Assembly (NCBI RefSeq): GCF_039566955.1
Contig: NZ_CP154796.1
Location: 4,464,001 to 4,528,000 of the forward strand
Source of the DNA: Micromonospora sp. DSM 45708
GTDB taxonomy: Bacteria; Actinomycetota; Actinomycetes; Mycobacteriales; Micromonosporaceae
Direction of reading: 5' to 3'
DNA: 64,000 nt
The notes under the pieces are model-generated. The model was not told the origin of the DNA and made no database searches. It saw nothing but the letters and a program-made list of their open reading frames with translations. This document shows positions 1-14,005 of the stretch, one piece after another; position 1 is the stretch's first letter, and each line of letters begins with the position of its first letter. The position numbers and the translations under genes were made by a program.

Positions 1-2
1 GC

Positions 3-863
3 GGCATCGTGGTGATCGACCTGGTCACGTTCGCGGTGGCGGTGACCGTCACGCTGTCGGTCCGCTTCCCGGACACGCTGTTCGTGCGCCGGGAGGAGCC
101 GTTCCGCCGCGAGGTGCTGGGTGGCTGGCGGTTCATCGTCCGCCGGCACGGGCTGGTCGCCCTGGTCGTGCTGGTGGCGTCGCTGAACTACTTCTTCGCC
201 ATGGTGGAGGTGCTGGTCACGCCGCTCACGCTCTCCTTCGGCGACCCGGCGGTGCTCGGCCGGGTGCTGGCCGCCAGCGGGGTCGGCATGGTGGTCGGGT
301 CGGTGCTGATGGGCGTCTGGGGCGGCACCGCCCGGCGGACCACCGGCATCCTGGCCAGCGTCGTGCTGCTGGGCGTCTCGCTGCTCACCGTCGGGCTGCG
401 GCCGGACCCGCTGTTCCCGGCGCTCGGCCTGTTCGGCATGGGCCTGGCCACCGCGCTGGTGAACACGCACTGGCTGGCCATCGTGCAGGCCAAGGTGGGC
501 CTGGAGTTGCAGGGCCGGGTGCTCGCCATGGCGCAGATGCTGTCCTGGCTGATGGTGCCGGCCGGGTTCCTCAGCGCCGGCCCGCTCGCCGAGCACGTGC
601 TCGCCCCGCTGGCCCGGCCCGGCGGTCCGCTCGCCGGGCTGGCCGGCACCGGGCCGGGCCGGGGGATGGCGCTGGCCGCGATCCTGGCCGGGCTCTGCGC
701 GCTGGCGCTGGCCGCCGGCGGCATCGCGTACCGGCGGATCCGCCGGCTGGAGGACGAGCTGCCGGACAACGACCCGGGCAGCGTGGTGCTCGCCGACAAG
801 GACCGTCTCCAGGAGGAGGCGGACCGCCGGCTCGCGGCGGCGCTCGCCGGTGGCGGCCGGTGA
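3..863 (+). CDS. MFS transporter, C-terminal part (left edge)
   Basis: The reading frame is open from the first bases, so this is the C-terminal part (about 286 residues) of a longer protein whose start lies outside the window. It shows several hydrophobic helices separated by short basic loops, with a charged cytoplasmic tail of about 45 residues, as in drug/siderophore exporters of the major facilitator superfamily (EntS/MFS_3 type). The TGA stop overlaps the GTG start of the next NRPS gene by four bases (860-863), so it belongs to the same operon. Likely role: export of, and self-protection against, the product of the downstream NRPS operon. P. aeruginosa AmbA, the exporter of the comparable system, belongs to a different family (LysE). 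The substrate is inferred from context only. Confidence 0.85.
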
Positions 864-3800
864 ACGCGCCCGCCCGGCCCGCCGGCCCGACCCGGCGCGC
901 CGCCGCCCGCCGTACCGGCAGCGGTCCGGCCCCGGTGGACTGCCTGCACCGGATGGTCGCCGCGCAGGCCGCCCGCACCCCGGACGCGGAGGCGGTCCGG
1001 CACGGCGACGCCACGCTCACCTACCGGGACCTCGACGAGGCGGCGAACCGGCTGGCGCGGGTGCTGCTCGCCGCCGGCGTCACGCGCGCCGACCGGGTCG
1101 GCGTCTGCCTTCCGCGTACGCCGGAACTGGTGGTCGCGCTGCTCGCCGTGCTCAAGGCCGGCGCGGCGTACGTGCCGCTGGACCCGGCGTACCCGGCGGC
1201 CCGGGTGGCGTTCATGACGGCCGACTCGAAAGCCCGGCTGGTGCTGACCCGCACCGACCTCGCCGGCCGGTTTCCCGGCCCGACCGTGCTGACCGACCGG
1301 CTCGACCCGGCCGGGGACGGCACCGACCCGGCGACGCCGGTGACGCCGGCCGACCTGGCGTACGTCATCTACACGTCCGGCTCCACCGGGCGGCCCAAGG
1401 GCGTGGCGATCGAGCACCGCTCGGCGTCGGTGCTGCTGCACTGGGTCCGGCAGACGTTCGACGACACCGAGCTGGGCGGCATGCTCGCCGCCACCTCGGT
1501 CTGCTTCGACCTGTCCGTGTTCGAGATCTTCGGGCCGCTGGCCTGGGGTGGGCGGGTGCTGCTGGTCGACGACGTGCTGGCGCTGGCCGCGCCCGGCGCG
1601 GACCGGCTGCCGGTGACGCTCGTCAACACCGTGCCGGCGGCGATGGGCGAGCTGCTCACCGCCGGGGCGCTGCCACCGGGTGTCCGCACGGTCTGCCTGG
1701 CCGGCGAGCCGCTCACCGCCGCGCTGACCGCCCGGGTGTGGGCCCGCCCGCACGTGCGCCGGCTGTGCAACCTCTACGGCCCGTCCGAGGACACCACGTA
1801 CTCGACCTGGGCGGAGGTGCCCCGCGACGACGGGGACCCGCCGATCGGCCGGCCGCTGCCGGGCACCCGGGCGTACGTGCTCGACCCGGACGGGCGACCG
1901 GTGCCGCCCGGCGAGGCCGGTGAGCTGTACCTGGCCGGCACCGGGCTGGCCCGCGGCTACCTGGACCGGCCGGCGGAGACGCGGGACCGGTTCCGGCCGG
2001 ACCCGTTCCGGCCCGGCGAGCGGATGTACCGCACCGGCGACCGGGTCCGGCTGCGCCCGGACGGGCAACTGGCCTACCTGGGTCGGCTCGACGACCAGGT
2101 GAAGCTGCGCGGCTACCGGATCGAGCTGGGCGAGGTGGCCGCCCGGCTCGCCGCGCTGCCCGGCGTACGCGGGGCGACCGCCGCCGTCCGGCCCGGCCCG
2201 AGCGGGGACCCGGTGCTGGTCGGCTACCTGACCGGCGAGCGGCGCGACGACGTGCGGGCCCGGCTGGCCGAGGTGCTGCCCGCGCCGCTGGTGCCGGCGG
2301 CCGTGGTCTGGCTGGACCGGCTGCCCACGCTGCCCAACGGCAAGGTCGACCGATCCGCGCTGCCCGCGCCGACGTTCGGCTCGGCCGCCGGCTCCGGCTC
2401 GCTCGACCCGACCGGCGCGCTGGTCGCGGCGGTCTGGCGGGAACTGCTCGGCGTGCCGGTCACCGGCCCGGACGACGACTTCCTGGCGCTCGGCGGCGAC
2501 TCGCTGCTGGCGGTCCGCTGCGCCACCCGGCTGACCGCCGCCACCGGCCGCCGGGTCCACCCCGGTGCCCTGTTCGCCCGCCCGACCGTCGCCGCGCTGG
2601 CCGCCTGGATCGACGCGCCCTCCGATCCGGACGGTGCGCCGATCGACCCGGCGGGGCGCGGTCCGGACCTCACCGGCACGCCGACGACCGCCGGAGCCGC
2701 GACCGGCGGGCCGGCCGGCGACGGGCCCGCGACCGGCGGGCCGGCGCCGCTGTCCGCGGCGCAGCGGCGGTTCTGGTTCCTGCACCGGCTCGACCCGGCC
2801 GACACGTCCTACCTGCTGGCGTTCGCGGTCCGGTTCGCCGCGCCGCTGGACCCGGAACGGCTGACCCGGGCGCTGCACCGGGTGGTCGACCGGCATCCCG
2901 CGCTGCGCACCGTCCTGCCCGCCGGGCCGGACGGGCCGGTGCAGGTGGTGCGCCCGGACGCCCGGCCGGACCTCGTGGTCGCGCCGGCCGACCCGGGCGC
3001 TCCGCTCGACGCCCGGCTGGCCCGGCTCGCCGCCGAGGGCACGCGTGCCCCGATGGACCTGGCCACCGGGCCGCTGCTGCGCGCGTGCCTGCTGCCCGAC
3101 GGCGGCGGTCGGGCGGAGGCGCTGCTGCTGGTCGTGCACCACGCGGTCGCCGACGACTGGTCGTTCGGGGTGCTGGTGCGGGACCTGGCGGCGGCCTACG
3201 ACGACCCGGACGCGCCCACCGAGCCGGCGCCCGGCCCGGCCGTCCTCGCCGCCGCGCAGCGCGCCTGGCTGGCGGCGCCGGCCGGCCGGCGCGCGACCGA
3301 CGAGCTGCTGGCCGAGCTGCGCGACGCCCCCCACCTGCTGGAGGTGGGCGGGGGCCCCCGCTCGACGCCTGTGGCGCAGGAGGAGGTCCCGGCGCACACC
3401 CGGGGCGGGGCCGCGCTGCGGACCACCGTGGACCCGGCGACCGCCACGGCGGTGCGGGACCTGGCCCGCGCGCACCGGGCCAGCCTGCACATGGTCGGGC
3501 TGGCCGGGTTCGCCGCGCTGCTCGGCGCCGCCACCGGCCGGGACGACCTGCTGGTCGGCGTCGCCTTCGCCGGCCGCACCAGCGTGGCCGCCGAACGCAG
3601 CGTCGGCTGCCACGTGAACACGCTGCCGCTGCGACTGCGCCCGGCGCCGGACCGGACGTTCGCCGAGCTGCTCGCCGAGGCCCGACGGGTCACGCTGTTC
3701 GCCGCCGCCCGCCAGGACGTCCCGTTCGACCTGCTGGTGGAGCGGCTCAACCCGACCCGCCGACCGGGTCGCAACCCGCTCGTCCAGGTCGCGTTCGGGG

Positions 3801-4078
3801 TGCAGAACGCGCCACCGGCCCGGCACCGCAGCGTGGCCGGCGGCGGCGACTTCGTCGGCGTCGAACTGACCCCGGACGCGGCCCGCCTCGACCTGACGCT
3901 CTGGCTGGACGACCGGCGGGACGCGCTGGACGCGCTCTGGACCTACCGCACCGACCTGTTCGACCACGACGGGGTGGTGACGTGGCACCGCCGCCTCACC
4001 GCGCTGCTGCGTACCGCCGCCGTCGACCCCCGGCGCAGTCTGGCCGACTGCGCCGACACCGCTGGGAGAGAGAGATGA
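860..4078 (+). CDS. NRPS A-PCP-C, AmbB-like, predicted alanine-activating
   Basis: 1072 residues. The adenylation domain spans about 30-520: A3 [10 protein letters not shown] from residue 172, A5 NLYGPSE, A7 YRTGD, A10 NGKVDR. The carrier domain has GGDSL with phosphopantetheine Ser548. The condensation domain spans about 635-1065, with HHAVADDW at 760-767; the canonical HHxxxDG has Asp in place of Gly. My hand-aligned specificity code is D-L-F-N-C-A-L-T-Y-K, close to the DLFNNALTYK code I recall for alanine. It starts at GTG, overlapping the upstream stop (GTGA), and its TGA overlaps the next ATG. The order A-PCP-C with no N-terminal C domain fits an initiating module that hands its amino acid to a partner whose own C domain is defective, as in AmbB/AmbE. 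Its A domain may also load the last PCP of the second NRPS in trans (inference). Confidence 0.93.
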
Positions 4079-5118
4079 CCGATCAGATCCGGGTCGCGCG
4101 GCCCGTCCCCCGCCGCGGCCGGGAACGGAACCTGGTGGACGTACGACCGGACTGGCCGGGCGGCCCGCTGCCGGCGCTGGTGCACGCCAACGTGCCCGAC
4201 GTCGACCTGGCCGGCTGGCTGGCCGGGCACCGCGACGAGGTGGACGGGCTGGCCCGTCGCGCCGGCGCGGTGCTGTTCCGCGGCTTCGCGGTGGCCGGCG
4301 CGGACGACTTCCGCACGGTGATGGCGGCGCTCTCCGACGACGTGCTGTCCTACGGCGAGCGGTCCTCGCCGCGCAGCCGGGTCACCGAGGGCGTCTACAC
4401 GTCCACCGAGCACCCCGCCGACCAGCCGATCGTGCTGCACAACGAGCAGTCGTACACGGTCACCTGGCCGCTGCGCATCGTGTTCCACTGCGAGGTCGCG
4501 CCGGCCGCCGGTGGGCGTACGCCGCTGGCGGACAGCCGTCGGGTGCTGGCCCGGCTGCGCCCGGAGACGGTCGCGGAGTTCGAGGAGCGCGGCGTGCTCT
4601 ACCGGCGCAACTACCTGCCCGGCATCAGCCTGTCCTGGCAGACCGCGTTCCAGACCGACTCCCGCGCCGAGGTCGAGGCGTACTGCGCGCGGTCGCTGAT
4701 CGACGTGGAGTGGGTGGGCGAGACGCAGTTGCGGACCCGGCAGGTGCGCCCGGCGGTCCGCCGGCACCCGGTCACCGGGGAACGGACCTGGTTCAACCAC
4801 GCGTTGTTCTTCCACGTCACGTCGCTGCCGGCGGACGTCAGCGCCGGGCTGCGGGCCGCGCTGGCCGAGGAGGACCTGCCCTACCAGACCGCGTACGGCG
4901 ACGGCACGCCCGTCCCGGACGAGGTGCTGGCCGAGCTGCGCGCCGCGTACGCGGCGGAGACCCGCGCGTTCGACTGGCGGGCCGGCGACGTGCTGCTGGT
5001 GGAGAACATGCTGGCCGCGCACGCCCGGGAGCCGTTCACGCCGCCCCGGCGGATCCTCACCGCGATGGCCGACCCGGCCGCCGCGCCCGAGCTGACCGCG
5101 AAAGGTGGCACCTCATGA
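4075..5118 (+). CDS. TauD/SyrP-type Fe(II)/2-oxoglutarate oxygenase (first of pair)
   Basis: 347 residues of the clavaminate synthase/TauD superfamily. The metal triad appears as H122-x-E124 (LHNEQSY) and H316 (AAHAREPF); an arginine about 10 residues further (PPRRIL) fits the 2-oxoglutarate anchor. The Glu instead of Asp in the HxD/E motif is shared with SyrP-like enzymes that act on amino acids tethered to NRPS carriers. ATG overlaps the NRPS stop (ATGA) and the TGA overlaps the next start, so translation is coupled. It is paralogous to the following gene, a pattern matching AmbC/AmbD. Likely role: hydroxylation or desaturation of the carrier-bound glutamate. Substrate and position are inferred. 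Confidence 0.92.
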
Positions 5119-6134
5119 GCGCCCCCGGGCCCCGCCGCCGCGCCGCCGGTGGCACCGTCACCGCGCCGGTGACCCGTCGCACGCTCGGCCCGGACGGCTT
5201 CGTGCTGCTGGTCGAGGCCGCCGTGCCCGACCTCGACCTGGCCGGCTGGCTCGCCGGGCGGCGGGCCGAGCTGCTGGCCGACCTGGACCGGCACGCGGCG
5301 GTGTTCTTCCGCGGCTTCGACGTGCGCAGCGCCGACGACTTCGGCCGGGCCGCCCGGGAGATCAGCCCGGAGCTGCTCGGCTACCTGGAACGGGCCGCGC
5401 CCCGGCACGAGGTGGCCGACCGGGTGTTCACCTCGACGGAGTTCAACGCCGCCCAGTGGATCCCGCTGCACCACGAGATGTCGTACTCGCACAACTGGCC
5501 GACGCATCTGTTCTTCCACTGCGCGCAGCCGGCCACCGGCGACGGCGGCGCGACCCCGCTGGCCGCCGAGCGGGTGGTCACCCCGCTGATCCCGGCCGAG
5601 GTGCGGGAACGGTTCGCCCGCGACGGCGTGCGCTACGTGCGCAACTACGGCCCGCACCTGGACCTGCCGTGGCAGGAGGCGTTCCAGACCACCGACCGGG
5701 CGGAGGTGGAGGCGTACTGCGCCGCGTCGGCCACGGAGTTCACCTGGCTGGGCGCGGACGGGCTGCGGACCGTGGCGCGGCGGCAGGCGACGGCCACGCA
5801 CCCGCGGACCGGGGAGACGGTGTGGTTCAACCACGCCCACCTGTTCCACGTGTCGAACATGCCGCCCGAGGTGGCCGACGCGCTGAGACGCGAGTACGGC
5901 CCGGAGGGGCTGCCGCGCAACGCGTACCACGGCGACGGTGAGCCGATCCCCGACGAGGTGGTCACCGGCATCCGTGAGCTGTACCGGCAGCACGCCCTCT
6001 CCGTGCCGTGGCGGCGCGGCGACGTGCTGGTGGTGGACAACTTCCTGGCCACCCACGGCCGGGAACCCTTCACCGGCGACCGGCAGATCCTGGTCGCCAT
6101 GTCCGACCTCTACGTCAACCGGAGTGTGTGGTGA
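5115..6134 (+). CDS. TauD/SyrP-type Fe(II)/2-oxoglutarate oxygenase (second of pair)
   Basis: 339 residues, clearly related to the preceding gene across its whole length (VFFRGF, FTSTE, LHHEMSY, VWFNHA, HGREPF). Metal ligands: H119-x-E121 and H314, with QIL after an Arg-rich turn towards the C-terminus. The start ATG overlaps the upstream stop and the TGA overlaps the GTG of the second NRPS. Two sequential oxygenases fit a route needing two oxidations of a glutamyl thioester, for example C-C hydroxylation plus oxidative decarboxylation or desaturation to yield a vinyl ether, as proposed for AMB. Which oxygenase performs which step cannot be read from sequence. Confidence 0.92.
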   Translation: MSAPGPRRRAAGGTVTAPVTRRTLGPDGFVLLVEAAVPDLDLAGWLAGRRAELLADLDRHAAVFFRGFDVRSADDFGRAAREISPELLGYLERAAPRHEVADRVFTSTEFNAAQWIPLHHEMSYSHNWPTHLFFHCAQPATGDGGATPLAAERVVTPLIPAEVRERFARDGVRYVRNYGPHLDLPWQEAFQTTDRAEVEAYCAASATEFTWLGADGLRTVARRQATATHPRTGETVWFNHAHLFHVSNMPPEVADALRREYGPEGLPRNAYHGDGEPIPDEVVTGIRELYRQHALSVPWRRGDVLVVDNFLATHGREPFTGDRQILVAMSDLYVNRSVW

Positions 6135-9100
6135 ACGGATACCGTCTGTCCCCGGTCCAGCGACTGGCCTGGTCCGGCAAGCAGGATCTGGTGCGGGCCC
6201 GGGTCCGGCTCGGCCGGCCGCTCGACCGGGCCCGGTTGCAGACCGCCGTGGACGAGGTGGTGGCCCGGCACGAGGCGCTGCGGCTGACGCTCGTGCACCA
6301 CCCCGGGCTGCGGGTGCCGTTGCAGGACGTGGACGACGACCGGACGGTCCCGGTCGGCGCGCAGGGCGAACTGTCGGTCATGCTCACCGACGACGCGTTG
6401 GAGCTGGCCGCCACCCCGCTGATCGCCGACCCGGCCAGCCTGCGCCTGGTCCTCGCCGACCTGGCCCGCGCGTACGCCGGCGACCTCCCGGCGGTCGAGG
6501 AGGAGGCGTTGCAGTTCCTCGACATCACCGAGTGGCAGGTCGAGGAGCGCGACCAGGCGGCGCCGCCCGCGCCGGGCGCACCGGCCGCGCGGCTCGTCGA
6601 GCCGCACGGCGACGACCCGGACGCGACGGTCACCGCCACGGTGCCCGCCGCCGAACTGGCCGGGACCGCCCGCGCCGCGAACGGCGACGTCGGGACGCTG
6701 CTGCTCGCCGCGTGGGCGCTCGCGGTGGCCCGCCGGGCCGAGACGCCGGACGGGGCCGAGGAGACGGATCTGGTGCTGGCCCGCTGGCACGACGGCCGGC
6801 ACGCCGAGGGCACCGGCGGCGTGGTCGGCCCGTTGGGCGGCTACGGGCCGCTGCGGCTGGCGTTGCCGCTGCCGGCCGAACCGGCCGAGCTGCTGGCCGC
6901 CGTACGCGCCGCCGAGGTCGCCGCCGACGAGACGTTCCACCTGGTCGACCCGGTCGACGAGAGCACCGGCGCGGTGGCCGGGTTCGCGGTCCAGCCGCCG
7001 GTCGCGCCGGCCACCGTCGCCGCCCTCGGCGGCACGGCGGCGGAGGTGCCGGTGCCGCCGCCGCCCGCCGGGCCGCGGCTCACCGTGCTTCCCGGCGACG
7101 ACGAGGTCACGCTGCGGGTGACCGGCGGGCAGTGGTTGCTCGACTCGCTGGTGGCGGTGCTGCGCAGCCTGCCGGCCGCGCTGGCCGGGGACGCCCCGCT
7201 CGCCGTGCTCGGCGCCGGGGAGGCCGGCTGGCTGGTCGAGGCCGGCGGCACGGCGGGGGCCGCGCCGACGCGTACCGTCGTCGACCTGCTGGACGCCGGC
7301 CTGGCCGGGATGGACGCCGACGCCCCGGCGGTGGTGGCGGCCGACGGCGCGTACCCCGCCGGGGAGCTGGACGCGCGGGCCGGGCGGGTGGCCGCGGCGC
7401 TGGCCGCGCGCGGCCTGGCCGGCCGACCGGTGGGCGTGCTGGCCGGCCGCTCCCGGGAGACCGTGGTGGCGTTCCTCGGCGTGCTGCGGGCCGGCGCGGT
7501 GTTCGTGCCGCTCGACCCGGACGCCCCGGCGCCGCGCCTGGCCGCCCAGCTCCGCGCCGTCGGCGCGGAGTGCGTGGTCGGCGACCGGGGCCCGGCGACC
7601 GTGTCGGTCGGCGAGCTGGTCGCCGCCGGCGGCCCACCGCCCGCGACCGCGCCGGCCCCGACCGACCCGGCGTACGTCATCTTCACCTCCGGCTCCACCG
7701 GCACGCCCCGGCCGGTCCGGGTGTCGCACGCCGCCGCCGCGCACCTGACCGGCGCGCTGGAGGCGACCGGGTACGCGGACAGCGCGCCGGGTCTGCGGGT
7801 GGCGGTCAACGCGCCGCTGACGTTCGACGCCTCGGTGAAGCAGCTCGTGCAGCTCGCCCACGGCCGCGCCCTGTGTCTGGTGCCGGACGACGTGCGCCGC
7901 GACGGTGCCGCGCTCGCCGCCTGGCTGGCGGAGCAGCGGGTGGACGTGCTCGACCTGACCCCTTCCCAGCTCCGCATCCTGCTCGCCGGCGCGGGCGACA
8001 CCCGGCTGCCCGGCCTGCTGCTGGTCGGCGGCGAGCCGGTGCCCGAGGACCTGTGGGCCGCGGTGGCGGCGCGGCCGGGCGTCCGCGCGGTCAACCTGTA
8101 CGGCCCGACCGAGTGCACGGTGGACACCACGGCGGCGGAGATCCGCGCCGGGGACCCGCCGACCATCGGCCGGCCGCTGCCCGGCGTGGCGGTGCGGGTG
8201 CTGGACGAGCGGCTGCGTCCGGTGCCGCCGGGGGTGGCCGGGGAGCTGTGCGTCGCCGGTCCGCAGCTCGCCGACGGTTACCTCGGCGACCCGGCGGCGA
8301 CCGCCAGTCGGTTCGTGGAGCTGCCGTTGCCGGCCGGCGGCGTCGAGCGGGTCTACCGCACCGGTGACCGGGTGCGCTTCGACGCGCGGCGGCGGCTGCG
8401 TTACCTGGGCCGTCTCGACGATCAGGTGAAGATCCACGGTTTCCGGGTGGAGCCGGGCGAGGTCGCCGCCGTGCTGCGCGGGCACCCGGAGGTGGCCGAC
8501 GCCGCGGTGGTGGCCCGCGACGACGACGGGTACGGCGACCGGCTGGTCGCCTACGTCCGGCCGCGCGCCGGCGTCGCGCTCGACCTCGACCGGGTCGCAG
8601 GCATCAACCCGCACGAGACCCGTTACCTGTACGACGAGATCTTCGGGCAGCGGGTCTACCTGCGGGACGGGATCGTGTTGCGCCCCGGCGCGACGGTGCT
8701 CGACGTGGGCGCCAACATCGGCATGTTCTCGCTCTTCGTGCACCAGGTCTGCCCGGACGCGACGATCCACGCGTTCGAGCCGGTGCCGGCCGTGGTCGAG
8801 GCGTTGCGCCGCAACGTCGCGGAGTTCGGCGTGCCGGCCACGGTGCACGCGCACGGGTTGTCGCGGGAGCCGGGCGAGGTCTCGTTCACCTACTACCCGG
8901 GCTACTCGATGATGTCCGGCCACGCCGCGTACGCCGACCCGGACGCCGAGATCGGGGTGATCAAGCGGTACCTGGCCAACGAGCGCGACGCCGGAGCGGG
9001 TGAGCGGGACCTGCTGCTCGACCGCGCGGACGAGCTGCTCGCCGAGCGCTTCGCCGGCCGGGAGCTGACCGTGCCGGTCCGACCGCTCTCGGCGGTGCTG

Positions 9101-11392
9101 GACGAGCTGGCGCCGGACCGGATCGACCTGTTGAAGATCGACGTGCAGCGCGCCGAGGCGGACGTGCTGGCCGGGCTGGACGACCGGCACTGGCCGCTTG
9201 TCGCGCAGGTCGCCATGGAGGTGCACGACGCCCCGGGCACGGCGACCGCCGGCCGGCTGGCCGAGCTGGTGGCGCTGCTGGAGGCGCGGGGCTTCACCGT
9301 GGTCACCCGGCAGGACGACCTGCTGGCCGGCACCGACCGGCACACGCTGCACGCGGTCCGTCCCGGGTACGCCACCGCGGGCGTGACGGTGGACGCGGCG
9401 CCCGCCGCCGGGCCCGTCGCGCCGCCTCGGCAGTGGCTCGCGGAGCGACTTCCGGCGCACCTGGTGCCGGCCGCGGTGGTGGTCCTCGACGAGCTGCCGT
9501 TGACCCGCAACGGCAAGCTGGACCGGGCGGCGCTGCCCGCGCCCCGGCTGGACCGGCCGGCCGGCGACCCGGCGGAGACGCCGGCGAACCGGGCCGAGGA
9601 GATCCTGGTCGAGGCGTGGCGCGAGGTGCTCGGGGTGGCGTCGTTCGGCGTCACGGACAGCTTCTTCGCGCTCGGCGGCGACTCCATCCGCAGCATCCAG
9701 ATGCAGGTGGCGGCGCAGAAGCGCGGGCTGTCGTTCCAGCTCAACGACATCTTCACCCACCAGACGATCCGGGACCTCGTCACGCACGGCCGGATCACGC
9801 TGGACGGGGTCGCGCCCGAACCGGCCGCCCACGACGGCCGGTTCTCGCTGGTCACGGCCGCCGACCGGGAGCGGCTGCCGGACGGGCTGGCCGACGCGTA
9901 CCCGATGACCGCGCTCCAGCTCGGCATGGTCTACCACGGTGAGCTGACCGGCGACCCGGCCGTCTACCACAACGTCACCGCGCACCGGGTCGCCGCGCCG
10001 CTGGACGTGGCGGCGCTGCGTCGCGCGCTGGCCGTGCTGGTGGACGCCCACCCGGTGCTGCGGACCGGCTTCGCGCTCGGCACGTACGCGGAGCCGTTGC
10101 AGCTCGTCCACGCGCGGGTGCCGGTCGAGCTGCCGGTGACGGACCTGACCGGGCTCGACGCGCCGGCCCGGCAGGCCCGGGTCGACGCGCTGGTCGCCGA
10201 GGAACGCCGGCGTCCGTTCGACTGGGCCCGGCCGCCGCTGCTGCGGCTGCACGCGGCCCGCACCGACGCCGACGGGTTCACGCTGCTGGTCGCCGAGCAC
10301 CACAGCGTCCTGGACGGCTGGAGCCTGCACCTGTTCCTGGCCGACCTGCTCGACGCGTACGACCGGGAGCGGGTCGGCGCGGCGGCCGGGGTCGATCCCG
10401 GGCTGCCGTTCCGGGAGTACGTGGCCGCGGAGCGGGCGGCCCTGGCCGACGCCGCGACCCGGCGGTTCTGGTTGGACGGCGCCGGTGCCGCGCCGCCGCT
10501 GCTGCTCGGCGGCGCGCAGCCACGGACCACCACCACCCAGCGGGTGCCGCTGCGGGCGGGCACCACCGAGCGGGTCGCCTCCGCCGCCCGGGACGCCGGG
10601 GTGCCGGTCAAGTCCTGGCTGTTCGCCGTGCACCTGCGCCTGGTCGGCGAGCTGGCCGGCCGGGACGACGTGGTCAGCGGCCTGGTCGTCGGCGGCCGGC
10701 CGGAGGGCGAGGGCAGCGCCGCCACGCTCGGACTGTTCCTCAACACGCTGCCGGTCCGCCTCGCGCTGGGCACCCGGTCGGTGGCCGAGCTCGCCGCCGA
10801 GGCGTGGCGGGCCGAACGGGACCTGATGGGGCACCACCGCTTCCCGCTCGCCGAGATCGTCCGGGCCGGCGGCGCGGGCCCACGGTTCGACCACTTCTTC
10901 AACTGGACGCACTTCCCGCCGCGTCCGGCCGACGCCGGCAGCCGCATCGTGGACAGTCGCGGCGTCACCGTGGACGTGGCGTTCAGCCTCGCCGTCGACG
11001 CCGAGCTGGCCGACGGGCGGCTCGGGCTGATGGTGCAGTACGACCACCGGCACGTCCCGGCCGATCGGGTGGACGCGCTGGCCGACGGCTTCCGCCGGCT
11101 GCTGGCGGCCGACCCGGACGCGCCGCTGCCACCGGTGGCCGGGCCGACGCCGGCGGCCGGCGGGGACGCCCGGCAGGAGTGGGCGGACCATGTGGCGGCG
11201 GCCTGGCAGGAGGTGCTCGGCACCGCGCCGCGCGACCCGGCGGCCGGCTTCCTGGCCGCCGGTGGCGACTCGCTGCGCGCGCTGCGGCTGGTCACGCTGC
11301 TGCGGCAGCGCCACGGCAGCGACCTGACGTTGCCGGAGTTCACCGCGCTGGGCAGCTACCGGGCGCTGGTGGAGCGGGTGGCGCGCGGATGA
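6131..11392 (+). CDS. NRPS C*-A(FkbM-MT)-PCP-C-PCP, AmbE-like, predicted glutamate-activating
   Basis: 1753 residues from GTG 6131, which follows a GGAG and overlaps the upstream stop; an in-frame ATG at 6008 inside the oxygenase is not credible. Residues 1-400 resemble a condensation domain, but the HHxxxDG position reads TPLIADPAS (degenerate). The A domain has A3 altered to TSGSTGTPRP (from 519), NLYGPTE at 655-661, and a code read by hand as D-A-K-D-L-G-L-V-D-K, near the surfactin-type Glu code DAKDLGVVDK. Between A8 and A9/A10 (about residues 823-1090) sits an FkbM-family methyltransferase (LDVGANIG at 857-864, HAFEPVP, KIDVQRAE at 1002). NGKLDR follows at 1127, then PCP Ser1185, an intact C domain (HHSVLDG 1390-1396) and a last PCP (Ser1714). 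There is no A domain for the last PCP and no thioesterase. Confidence 0.94.
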   Translation: MNGYRLSPVQRLAWSGKQDLVRARVRLGRPLDRARLQTAVDEVVARHEALRLTLVHHPGLRVPLQDVDDDRTVPVGAQGELSVMLTDDALELAATPLIADPASLRLVLADLARAYAGDLPAVEEEALQFLDITEWQVEERDQAAPPAPGAPAARLVEPHGDDPDATVTATVPAAELAGTARAANGDVGTLLLAAWALAVARRAETPDGAEETDLVLARWHDGRHAEGTGGVVGPLGGYGPLRLALPLPAEPAELLAAVRAAEVAADETFHLVDPVDESTGAVAGFAVQPPVAPATVAALGGTAAEVPVPPPPAGPRLTVLPGDDEVTLRVTGGQWLLDSLVAVLRSLPAALAGDAPLAVLGAGEAGWLVEAGGTAGAAPTRTVVDLLDAGLAGMDADAPAVVAADGAYPAGELDARAGRVAAALAARGLAGRPVGVLAGRSRETVVAFLGVLRAGAVFVPLDPDAPAPRLAAQLRAVGAECVVGDRGPATVSVGELVAAGGPPPATAPAPTDPAYVIFTSGSTGTPRPVRVSHAAAAHLTGALEATGYADSAPGLRVAVNAPLTFDASVKQLVQLAHGRALCLVPDDVRRDGAALAAWLAEQRVDVLDLTPSQLRILLAGAGDTRLPGLLLVGGEPVPEDLWAAVAARPGVRAVNLYGPTECTVDTTAAEIRAGDPPTIGRPLPGVAVRVLDERLRPVPPGVAGELCVAGPQLADGYLGDPAATASRFVELPLPAGGVERVYRTGDRVRFDARRRLRYLGRLDDQVKIHGFRVEPGEVAAVLRGHPEVADAAVVARDDDGYGDRLVAYVRPRAGVALDLDRVAGINPHETRYLYDEIFGQRVYLRDGIVLRPGATVLDVGANIGMFSLFVHQVCPDATIHAFEPVPAVVEALRRNVAEFGVPATVHAHGLSREPGEVSFTYYPGYSMMSGHAAYADPDAEIGVIKRYLANERDAGAGERDLLLDRADELLAERFAGRELTVPVRPLSAVLDELAPDRIDLLKIDVQRAEADVLAGLDDRHWPLVAQVAMEVHDAPGTATAGRLAELVALLEARGFTVVTRQDDLLAGTDRHTLHAVRPGYATAGVTVDAAPAAGPVAPPRQWLAERLPAHLVPAAVVVLDELPLTRNGKLDRAALPAPRLDRPAGDPAETPANRAEEILVEAWREVLGVASFGVTDSFFALGGDSIRSIQMQVAAQKRGLSFQLNDIFTHQTIRDLVTHGRITLDGVAPEPAAHDGRFSLVTAADRERLPDGLADAYPMTALQLGMVYHGELTGDPAVYHNVTAHRVAAPLDVAALRRALAVLVDAHPVLRTGFALGTYAEPLQLVHARVPVELPVTDLTGLDAPARQARVDALVAEERRRPFDWARPPLLRLHAARTDADGFTLLVAEHHSVLDGWSLHLFLADLLDAYDRERVGAAAGVDPGLPFREYVAAERAALADAATRRFWLDGAGAAPPLLLGGAQPRTTTTQRVPLRAGTTERVASAARDAGVPVKSWLFAVHLRLVGELAGRDDVVSGLVVGGRPEGEGSAATLGLFLNTLPVRLALGTRSVAELAAEAWRAERDLMGHHRFPLAEIVRAGGAGPRFDHFFNWTHFPPRPADAGSRIVDSRGVTVDVAFSLAVDAELADGRLGLMVQYDHRHVPADRVDALADGFRRLLAADPDAPLPPVAGPTPAAGGDARQEWADHVAAAWQEVLGTAPRDPAAGFLAAGGDSLRALRLVTLLRQRHGSDLTLPEFTALGSYRALVERVARG

Positions 11393-12561
11393 CCGGGTTC
11401 GGCACCGCCGCGGTGCACGGCGACGACGGCCTGGTTCCCGGCGGGGCGGTCGCGCCGCCGATCGTGCAGAGCGCCACGTTCAGCGCCGAGTCCGACGAGC
11501 GGTTCACCGAGATCGCCACCGAGACGCGGGGCAGCGCGTTCTACACCCGCTACGGCAACCCGAATCACGCGCAGGTGGCCGCCGTGGTGGCCGAGCTGGA
11601 GGGCGCGGAGACCGGGCTGGTCACCGCGTCCGGGATGGGCGCGATCAGCACGGTGGCGTTGGCCCTGCTCGCCGCCGGCGACCACGTGGTGGTGCAACGC
11701 AGCACGTACGGCGGCACCACCTCGCTGGCCACCGGGCTGCTGCCGCGCTTCGGCGTCGCGTACACCCAGGTGGATCAGACGGACGCGGACGCGTTCGCGC
11801 GGGCGCTGCGGCCGGAGACGCGGTTGGTGCTGGTGGAGACGCCGAGCAACCCGCTGCTGGAGCTGACCGACCTGGCCGCCGTGGTGGCGTCCGCGCACGC
11901 GGCCGGCGCGCTGGTGGTGGTGGACAACACGTTCGCCACGCCGGTCAACCAGCGTCCGCTGGCCGCCGGCGCGGACCTGGTCTGGCACAGCGCCACGAAG
12001 TTCCTCGGCGGGCACTCCGACGTGTCCGCCGGGGTGGTGGTCGGCGGCGCGGAACTCGTCGAGCGGGTGTGGCGGACGGCGATCGTCACCGGCGCCACGC
12101 TCGGCCCGGTCGACGCCTGGCTGCTGCTGCGCGGCCTGCGGACGCTGCCGCTGCGGGTGCAGCGGCACAACGCCAACGCGCTCGCGTTGGCCGAGGCGTT
12201 GGCGGGTCACCCGGCGGTGGCCCGGGTCCGCTACCCGGGGCTGCCCTCGCACCCGCAGCACGCGCTGGCCCGCCGGCAGATGACCGGCTTCGGCGGGGTG
12301 CTCGGCGTCGAGCTGGCCGCCGGCCGGGCCGGCGCGGCGGCGCTGCTGGCCGGGCTGCGGCTGGCCAAGCGGGCGGCCAGCCTCGGCAGCGTCAGCACGC
12401 TTGTGGTGCATCCGCGTTCGATGTGGGCCGGGATCGTGGACGCCGAGCAGCTCGCCGCCGCCGGGATCGGCGAGGGTCTGGTCCGCGTCTCGACCGGCAT
12501 CGAGGACACCGCCGACCTGGTGGCGGACTTCCTGGCCGCGCTGGAGGCGGCGCCGACCTGA
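11389..12561 (+). CDS. Cys/Met-metabolism PLP enzyme (gamma-elimination/replacement family)
   Basis: 390 residues, full length for the trans-sulfuration family (methionine gamma-lyase, cystathionine gamma-synthase/lyase, O-acetylhomoserine sulfhydrylase). Visible motifs: FYTRYGNPN (substrate/phosphate loop), ASGMGAIS (PLP phosphate), VETPSNP, VVDNTFATP (Asp to the pyridine nitrogen), and SATKFLGGH with Schiff-base Lys204. The ATG overlaps the NRPS stop (ATGA), so it is the last gene of the operon. Possible roles: making or processing a C4 amino acid, finishing the vinylglycine, or acting as a resistant copy of an enzyme class that vinylglycines inactivate. Rhizobitoxine synthesis also uses an O-acetylhomoserine-sulfhydrylase-like domain (in RtxA). 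The sequence does not choose between these. Confidence 0.9.
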   Translation: MTGFGTAAVHGDDGLVPGGAVAPPIVQSATFSAESDERFTEIATETRGSAFYTRYGNPNHAQVAAVVAELEGAETGLVTASGMGAISTVALALLAAGDHVVVQRSTYGGTTSLATGLLPRFGVAYTQVDQTDADAFARALRPETRLVLVETPSNPLLELTDLAAVVASAHAAGALVVVDNTFATPVNQRPLAAGADLVWHSATKFLGGHSDVSAGVVVGGAELVERVWRTAIVTGATLGPVDAWLLLRGLRTLPLRVQRHNANALALAEALAGHPAVARVRYPGLPSHPQHALARRQMTGFGGVLGVELAAGRAGAAALLAGLRLAKRAASLGSVSTLVVHPRSMWAGIVDAEQLAAAGIGEGLVRVSTGIEDTADLVADFLAALEAAPT

Positions 12562-12565
12562 CGAC

Positions 12566-14005
12566 TCAGGGCGCCTCGTCGCCGCGCTTCTCCTCCTGGG
12601 CCAGCACCGCGTCGCGGCGCTGCGGGTCGGTGCGCTCGGCCAGCTCGGCGGCGAGCCGCGGGTCACCGGCGAGCCGTTCCCGGTTGCGGTGCAGGAACGC
12701 CTCGAACCCGCCGGTGTACGGGCACGCGTCGTCGCCGAGCGCCTGTTTCGGCACGTACCGGCAGCCGCCGCAGTGGGCGCCGATCCGGTCCAGGTGGCCG
12801 CCGTCGAACGCCCACGGCCGGGTGTCGATGCGGGCCAGGTCGGCGTACTGGCTCATGCCGATGACGGTGGCGTTCATGATCCAGTCGGTGCCGTCGACGA
12901 AGCTGCGCCGGAACCAGTCGGCCAGCTCGGCGGCGCGCCAGCCGCGTTGCAGGCCGTAGTTGGCGAGCACGGTCAGCCGCGCGGTCTGGTGCGCCCAGCC
13001 GGTGTCCCGCACGCCGGCCAGCACGTCGGCCAGGCAGTGGGCCTCCACCGCGTCCGCGTCGAGCCGGTCGAACCACTCCGGCAGCGGTCGGGTGGCGGCG
13101 AGCCAGCCGGCGCCCCGGAAGCGCGGGTCGAAGTACCAGTAGAGCTGCCACAGGAACTCGCGCCAGCCGAACAGGCCGTGCACGAAGCGGTGCACCGCCG
13201 CGGTCGGCGCGGTCCCGGCGCGGCCGGCGCGCTCGACGGCCCGGATGGCCGGTTCCGGGTCGAGCAGGCCGAGGTTGAACGAGGACGACAGCGCGCTGTG
13301 CGCGAGCAACCCGTCGCGGTCGCTGAGCACGCCCTCGGACTCGGCGTACGCGGACAGCCGGTGGTCGAGGAAGTGCGCGAGCCGGGCCTGCGCCTCGGCG
13401 TGCGTGGCCGGGTAGCGGCGCGGGGCGTCCCGGCCGACGAACCGGATCCCCTCGTCCTGCCAGCGGTCGAGGTCCCGGCGGACCTGCGCGTCGATGTCGT
13501 CCTCGACGATCGGCGGCGGTGGCGGCACCTCGACAGTCGTCCGGGGGCGGGGCCGGCGGGTGGGCGGCGGCAGGTCCCGCAGCACGTCGTGCCGGTTCCG
13601 CGCGTACCGGTAGAAGTCGGCCATCCGCAGTCGGCCGCGCCGGGTGTCGGCCCAGGCAGCGAAGTCGGCGCGGTCGGTGACGAAGCCGCGCGGCGGCAGC
13701 ACGGCCAGCCCGTCGACGCTACGCGCGAACGCGAGCGTCGCCCGCGACGACGGGTGCACCACCTCGGCCGGTTCGCGCAGGTCGGTGAGCGCGGCCCGGA
13801 ACGTGTCGGCGCGCACCAGCCGGGCCCGGTCGCCGAGTTCGGCGGCCCGGTGCCGCAACGCCGACAGGATCAGGTGCGCCTTCTGCCGGTGCACTGGGCG
13901 GGCGGCGAACACCGACCGGTTCTCCACCAGCAGGACGCGTTGCGCGTCGTCGTCGAGGAAGTGGGGACCGAGCTGGTCCGCCAGGAGCCAACGCCAGCGT
14001 GACAT
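12566..14005 (-). CDS. (6-4) photolyase / cryptochrome-related protein with Fe-S cluster (FeS-BCP, PhrB-like)
   Basis: 479 residues of the bacterial FeS-containing photolyase class: N-terminal alpha/beta antenna domain beginning WRWLLADQLG, then an all-helical FAD domain (GWREFLW, GMSQYADL). Four cysteines at 324, 412, 415 and 428 have spacings of 88, 3 and 13 residues, the same as those I recall for Agrobacterium PhrB (350, 438, 441, 454), so a [4Fe-4S] cluster is expected. Role: light-driven repair of (6-4) pyrimidine photoproducts. Residues about 146-166 form a Pro/Arg-rich linker. It converges on the NRPS operon with only four bases between stops and is probably unrelated to it. A purine-rich GAAAGGGG lies about 12 nt before the ATG. 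Confidence 0.92.
   Translation of the reverse strand: MSRWRWLLADQLGPHFLDDDAQRVLLVENRSVFAARPVHRQKAHLILSALRHRAAELGDRARLVRADTFRAALTDLREPAEVVHPSSRATLAFARSVDGLAVLPPRGFVTDRADFAAWADTRRGRLRMADFYRYARNRHDVLRDLPPPTRRPRPRTTVEVPPPPPIVEDDIDAQVRRDLDRWQDEGIRFVGRDAPRRYPATHAEAQARLAHFLDHRLSAYAESEGVLSDRDGLLAHSALSSSFNLGLLDPEPAIRAVERAGRAGTAPTAAVHRFVHGLFGWREFLWQLYWYFDPRFRGAGWLAATRPLPEWFDRLDADAVEAHCLADVLAGVRDTGWAHQTARLTVLANYGLQRGWRAAELADWFRRSFVDGTDWIMNATVIGMSQYADLARIDTRPWAFDGGHLDRIGAHCGGCRYVPKQALGDDACPYTGGFEAFLHRNRERLAGDPRLAAELAERTDPQRRDAVLAQEEKRGDEAP

Follow-up and report, generated by a model that had tools for sequence, protein, structure and literature searches.

An AMB-type cassette and an upstream NRPS-PKS gene in a six-gene operon of Micromonospora

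The window, a stretch of 64,000 nucleotides analysed as a whole (bases 4464001-4528000 of the single-contig 7.0-Mb genome of Micromonospora sp. DSM 45708), opens with genes in the order of those for L-2-amino-4-methoxy-trans-3-butenoate (AMB) in Pseudomonas aeruginosa. What do these genes make in an actinomycete? The earlier note, which had only the window before it, answered AMB or a close vinylglycine, and allowed that the product or its release may be new. For AMB or a simple vinylglycine there is no support once a gene hidden from the note is taken in, the upstream NRPS-PKS gene N1, which has the operon's only TE. AMB itself is therefore probably not the end product, as far as gene content can tell. 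The reading favoured here, held with rather more confidence than doubt, is that the product of the six genes is a hybrid peptide carrying a 4-methoxyvinylglycine (AMB-type) residue.

According to the available text of PMC8064604 (2021), AMB production has been reported only in P. aeruginosa, and other vinylglycines lack systematic analyses. A literature search, with most subscription papers outside its reach, gave no match for the A-domain code strings, nothing on the chemical name of AMB together with Micromonospora, no title pointing to a cluster for AMB in actinobacteria and, by title, nothing on point for NRPS-MFS fusions.

Operon layout and the upstream gene N1

The operon consists of six forward-strand genes, N1, N2, OX1, OX2, N3 and the PLP gene (Table 1). 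The 4-base overlaps claimed earlier are present at all five junctions, N1/N2 included. Position 12561 ends the operon and is followed by a convergent photolyase-related gene on the opposite strand (12566-14005). The upstream flank is an Ig-like/beta-propeller protein gene, also on the opposite strand.

Table 1. Operon genes and N3 domains, in window positions
Feature	Position	Strand	Description
N1 3' end	1..863	+	MFS sequence only; whole gene at genome 4452720-4464863
N2	860..4078	+	1072 aa; AmbB-like loading protein A-T-C
OX1	4075..5118	+	Fe(II)/2OG oxygenase, TauD PF02668; AmbC position
OX2	5115..6134	+	Fe(II)/2OG oxygenase, TauD PF02668; AmbD position
N3	6131..11392	+	1753 aa; AmbE-like, Q-A-MT-T1-C-T2, without TE
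N3 Q domain	6131..7246	+	C-domain fold without HHxxxDG
N3 A-domain core	7316..8578	+	Glu-like code DAKDLGLVD
N3 FkbM-type methyltransferase (MT)	8588..9415	+	inside A domain; DVGANIG at residue 858
N3 T1	9602..9787	+	LGGDSI
N3 dehydrating-type C domain	9872..11140	+	42% identity to AmbE-C2 (7r9x)
N3 T2	11198..11380	+	AGGDSL; N3 end, no TE after
PLP enzyme	11389..12561	+	Cys/Met-metabolism family PF01053; YGGT at 107, Lys204

N1 is a 12-kb gene of one open frame (4047 aa), about 11.3 kb of which precede the window. Pfam gives it the domains C-A(Asn-like)-T-KS-AT-T-C-A(Gly-like)-T-TE-MFS, the MFS part being an MFS_1 domain; a KR domain was not found in N1 by Pfam. The first C domain carries HH (HHVAIDE, residue 188), and the KS Cys, the AT Ser and the three carrier serines are present. 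The TE nucleophile is Cys rather than Ser, and the motif reads GHCVG or GHCMG in 18/18 relatives' rows read, some of which are one strain twice. The codes, read by alignment, are DLTKVGEVG for the Asn-like N1-A1 and DMPQVGLVW for the Gly-like N1-A2. Both are unchanged in eight of eight relatives, all of them Micromonospora. Asn and Gly are the weaker substrate calls among the operon's A domains, and malonyl is predicted for the AT from its motifs. The amino acid names given for the four A domains are predictions from reference codes.

Two other stretches of the genome, 3602623-3604839 (-) and 2155658-2157775 (+), match the TE-MFS end of N1 at 41-42%. The former (L140, 4605-10091 (-)) is an NRPS with a terminal TE fused to an MFS domain, near a TauD oxygenase. 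Many of the 31 Micromonospora genomes with the cassette described below have similar TE-MFS matches, so the fusion of an assembly line to an exporter seems to be recurrent in the genus.

The cassette N2-OX1-OX2-N3

The order N2-OX1-OX2-N3 is that of AmbB-C-D-E. The two systems share an A-T-C protein with an Ala-like code, two tandem oxygenases and a Q-A(Glu-like)-MT-T1-C-T2 protein. The earlier note had recognised this order and domain logic, which is supported, as is the link of N3 to AmbE: no solved structure matches the N3 C domain better than the dehydrating C domain of AmbE. It had also read N2 as A-T-C with an Ala-like code, OX1 and OX2 as tandem Fe(II)/2OG oxygenases, and N3 as a degenerate C domain, a Glu-like A domain with a methyltransferase, and T-C-T; each of these readings stood. 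The differences lie around the cassette. AmbE has a C-terminal TE, whereas N3 ends after T2, so that the absence of a TE reported earlier is true of the window but not of the operon. The AMB pathway has the LysE-type exporter AmbA, whereas the Micromonospora operon has an MFS domain fused to N1, and Pfam found no LysE match in its six proteins. The NRPS-PKS and the PLP enzyme are additions to the AMB pathway.

N2 has no C domain ahead of its A domain. Its code, DLFNCALTY by alignment, recurs in all but one of 35 relatives' rows with at least 50% identity; the exception (L140) is another cluster in the same genome. The N2 C domain has the HHxxxDD form of the motif (HHAVADD) also seen in AmbB, and in more distant N2 relatives the final D is replaced by G, A, T or E. 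The AmbB residues are Asp957 and Asp958, and changing Asp958 had no significant effect according to the available text of PMC8968710. AmbB is not the closest solved structure to N2-C: it ranks eighth (7x0e, 8.3e-36), and a DhbF-type domain is the best (5u89, 2.4e-56). N2-C is less telling than N3-C for kinship with AMB.

The C domain of N3 has AmbE (7r9x, 1.4e-83), McyA (4.8e-72) and PvdL (1.9e-31) as its best solved matches. By BLAST it is 42% identical to AmbE-C2 over 433 aa, whereas N1-C1, N1-C2 and N2-C reach only 28-32%. In the accessible part of PMC10880069, AmbE is harmed by changing H1497, R1605, D1726, D1734 or Q1747, residues that, according to the paper, other dehydrating C domains do not conserve. 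N3 is identical to AmbE at H1497, D1726, D1734, E1736 and Q1747 and differs at R1605 (K) and D1728 (A). It thus keeps four of the five needed residues, the fifth being R→K. Among N3-type rows, the window included, D1726 is kept in 32/32, Q1747 in 31, D1734 in 29 and E1736 in 27; these are rows above 150 bits, some from one genome, with L043, L069 and 37 other loci below the filter. N1-C1, N1-C2 and N2-C have none of D1726, D1734, E1736 and Q1747. Two further rows, outside these counts, come from second C domains in the type II cluster described below; there the same places are occupied by E, E, M and H. The top two solved matches, AmbE-C2 and McyA, place N3-C with the dehydrating C domains (DHC or C-modAA; AmbE-C2, AlbB-C2/C3, LgnD-C2), and it is predicted to dehydrate. 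Its 42% identity to AmbE and the four residues give good support to the predicted chemistry of the cassette, in which Glu becomes a methoxyvinylglycine residue that follows Ala.

The N-terminal ~385 residues of N3 have no Pfam name and are followed by the A domain with its inserted FkbM methyltransferase, T, C and T. An alignment of 19 of these Q domains matched an alignment of seven C domains over nearly the whole length (hhalign 99.9%, E 1.3e-32). The HH of HHxxxDG is replaced (TPLIADP). The predicted structure (pLDDT 89.6) matches many PDB C domains, including the X domain from teicoplanin synthesis, both by itself and bound to OxyB (4tx2/4tx3); ordinary C domains match it as well as the X domain or better. 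By its sequence, Q is a non-catalytic C-domain homologue.

Q is called a domain of unknown function in AmbE in the available text of PMC10880069. By analogy with the X domains of glycopeptide synthetases and with siderophore interface domains, which share with Q a catalysis-free C fold and separate oxygenases, it may be the docking platform for OX1 and OX2. Interface domains are listed beside siderophore beta-hydroxylases by antiSMASH 8 (PMC12230676, available portion). It is likeness of fold that would join Q to either subfamily. A Q profile run over the phylum at 1e-20 hit 35 of 396 genomes; since all but this genome score like ordinary C domains (next best 4.1e-48), that count is uninformative on cassettes.

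The Glu-like code of the N3 A domain was likewise read by alignment. DAKDLGLVD or DAKDLGVVD is present in 34 of 37 relatives' rows, which were selected by motif from 70 loci with an N3-like A domain. Two Bradyrhizobium rows end in N instead and one row reads DSKDLGLVD.

An H-x-E motif and a distal H are present in both OX1 (H122-x-E ... H316) and OX2 (H119-x-E ... H314). A tree was built of 52 oxygenases from the window and from 27 of 56 loci that gave an oxygenase match, leaving P. aeruginosa AmbC and AmbD outside it. All 22 adjacent pairs, from four phyla, split by cluster position (support 100/98); where one locus (L071) has three oxygenases, the last two were taken as its pair. In another locus (L112) the two oxygenases lie 17 kb apart and both fall on the first-member side. 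Sorangium cellulosum So ce26 has two loci (L081, L084) in which a single oxygenase precedes a C-like/Q-A-MT module inside a long NRPS line. The oxygenase is OX1-side in L081 and OX2-side in L084, and these modules could show which oxygenase works at which carbon.

Distribution and variants of the cassette

The cassette was found in 31 of 160 Micromonospora genomes (Q profile E ≤8.1e-127, with ordinary C domains next at 3.5e-59). OX2 relatives of 82-100% identity are present in 30 of the 160, and one more genome (G066) has a relative at 66%. The PLP gene (82-100%) accompanies the cassette in 30 of the 31 and is absent from G066. The TE-MFS end of N1 (83-100%) is present in 25 of the 31, as a single match without a stop in 23 and in two pieces in two. 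Among the remaining six, three have only paralogues at 40-42% and three have no match at 1e-60. All seven type I stretches examined that extend upstream have the architecture A1-KS-AT-C-A2-TE-MFS, with both codes unchanged.

Type II clusters, with the PLP gene and without N1, were found in five genomes (G043, G084, G089, G103, G121). In each of them OX2 and the PLP gene share contig and strand, and the PLP gene follows 18.8-19.6 kb downstream. In G121 (L139) the stretch between OX2 and the PLP gene contains TE, A-T, T-C, A(Ser-like)-T-C-T-TE and AzlC. All of these except AzlC stand in N1's place (L139 5564-18339), and the second C domain resembles dehydrating C domains at 34-37%. The type II product may therefore have dehydroalanine beside the vinylglycine.

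Outside Micromonospora, named genomes were scanned with the MT domain, and the best 80 of 305 candidate loci were mapped together with ten further stretches. Among these, related cassettes, whole or partial, were found in Streptomyces, Bradyrhizobium, Burkholderia and others. Both in other actinobacteria and in further phyla, the cassette recurs as a module with differing synthetases. In Saccharothrix sp. ALI-22-I (L057) it is accompanied by a discrete TE, AzlC and the PLP gene (58-59%), and not by N1; no N1-type KS-AT was found within 49 kb of its cassette, the matches on that contig being at least 49 kb away. Two other cassette-bearing Pseudonocardiaceae, Saccharothrix B-16348 (L070) and Actinophytocola (L082), gave no PLP gene of this kind, only paralogues at 42-48%. 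Streptomyces caatingaensis has a reduced form (L042, 1189-11242): an AMP-binding ligase gene, TE, OX1, OX2 and a 1284-aa Q-A-MT-T protein. An AmbB-like protein, C and T2 were not found there within the 20.8 kb examined.

Among the loci compared, AmbE-C2 matches the Micromonospora N3-C domains best (up to 46%, 267 bits), followed by Bradyrhizobium (39-40%, 255 bits). Burkholderia is at 42% (214 bits), Alkalilimnicola at 32% and Azospirillum at 29%. Transfer between phyla is possible. The Alkalilimnicola locus (L069; LysE, A-T-C, two oxygenases, AmbE-like) was considered as a reference amb cluster and rejected, because its synthetase has no AmbE match at 1e-60 and because of the 32% of its C domain.

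Proposed pathway, alternatives and the PLP enzyme

N2 would start the line, since no C domain precedes its A domain, and N1 would finish it, since it begins with C and ends with the only TE. The order N2, N3, N1 is the simplest on domain logic, though N1 comes first in the operon. As in the AMB pathway, N2 would activate Ala and N3 would load its T1 with Glu. While docked on Q, OX1 and OX2 would hydroxylate Glu at C3 and C4, MT would methylate the C4 oxygen, and N2-C would join Ala. N3-C would then dehydrate the residue and the side-chain carboxyl would be lost, leaving Ala-AMB on T2. Assays of the P. aeruginosa enzymes gave Ala as the substrate of AmbB and Glu as that of AmbE, and the 2015 model of AMB synthesis has a second Ala carried on T2 (PMC4357302, available text). 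By analogy T2 of N3 may be loaded with a second Ala as well.

N1 would add an Asn-like residue, a malonyl unit and a Gly-like residue, and the malonyl unit would be left as a ketone since Pfam found no KR in N1. The TE would release the product, and the MFS domain fused to it would export it. Obafluorin owes its beta-lactone to a Cys thioesterase (PMC6668435, available text), so a cyclising release by the N1 TE is possible as a guess. At the same level, a tetramic acid could be closed from the ketone adjoining the terminal Gly-like residue. The warhead would be masked in the chain until the target cell's peptidases free it. Self-protection would fall to the PLP enzyme, which could be a tolerant copy of a target or could destroy the free warhead. 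The transfer of the chain from N3 to N1, the binding of the oxygenases by Q and the role of the PLP enzyme are what we infer, and N1 may work independently of N3.

Among solved structures the PLP enzyme matches methionine gamma-lyase best (5e4z, 5.9e-95). It resembles the methionine gamma-lyase / cystathionine gamma-synthase family in PF01053 and is unlike it at YGGT, which presumably replaces the active-site Cys of methionine gamma-lyase (Cys116 in P. putida numbering). It also scores below the NCBIfam cut-offs of its best 25 models (389 against 550 bits for methionine gamma-lyase). An ordinary methionine gamma-lyase is ruled out by these two observations. The genome has two paralogues of the enzyme at 45-47%. 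Self-protection appears more likely than supply for N1. It fits best because the gene is constant in Micromonospora, occurs without N1 in Saccharothrix sp. ALI-22-I, and lies near AzlC both there and in G121; the AzlC family exports amino acids. Vinylglycines inhibit PLP enzymes (PMC8064604, available text). Against a universal need for the PLP gene beside the cassette speak L070 and L082.

The strongest alternative, though an unlikely one, is that free AMB or Ala-AMB is made and released from T2 of N3 in trans, by the N1 thioesterase or another TE, with N1 making a separate product or only lending its TE-MFS end. L057, L070 and the type II contig (L063/L139) each have a discrete TE gene directly after N3, and AzlC is found near the PLP gene in L057 and L139; for this cassette, then, it is normal that a separate TE acts on T2. 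This operon, however, has no discrete TE, and the initial C domain of N1 needs a donor. The retention of the N1 TE-MFS end in 25/31 cassette genomes and of the N1 architecture with unchanged codes in 7/7 type I upstream stretches also argues against this alternative.

Alternatively, the PLP enzyme could be biosynthetic, supplying an unusual amino acid to N1 or swapping the alkoxy group of a freed vinylglycine. Its family does carry out gamma-substitution via vinylglycine-type intermediates, and it is encoded by the last operon gene, kept in 30/31 cassette genomes. Yet it is also present in L057, where the 20.8 kb examined holds only Ala-like and Glu-like A domains, and an N-acylated warhead cannot form a PLP aldimine, which makes the biosynthetic role an unlikely one.

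Quite improbable is a residue that keeps its carboxyl, as a hydroxylated, O-methylated or dehydrated Glu derivative in a dehydropeptide rather than a vinylglycine: related C domains do make ordinary dehydro-residues, McyA being the second solved match, and Ser/Thr dehydrations are described (PMC10880069, accessible part), but N3 keeps D1726, D1734 and Q1747, which AmbE needs and at which McyA differs. The cassette as the tail of a long line is ruled out, since nothing of the C type precedes the A domain of N2 and N1 carries the TE. The earlier warning about upstream genes was right that one lies there, and on domain logic the cassette is the head of the line, not its tail.

The hybrid peptide is thus the reading kept here. 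A further step, taken only tentatively, is that it represents a new class of hybrid antimetabolites, in which an Ala-capped methoxyvinylglycine built on the line is extended by a PKS into a beta-keto peptide, released by a Cys TE and handed over to the membrane by the fused MFS domain. The kind of cassette is already known; new are its position at the head of an NRPS-PKS line, the TE-MFS fusion and the dedicated PLP enzyme. The cassette can serve as a signature in searches for vinylglycine-type inhibitors of PLP enzymes, and the PLP gene codes for a candidate self-protection enzyme. For the Q domain of AmbE, a role as oxygenase platform would be a testable idea.
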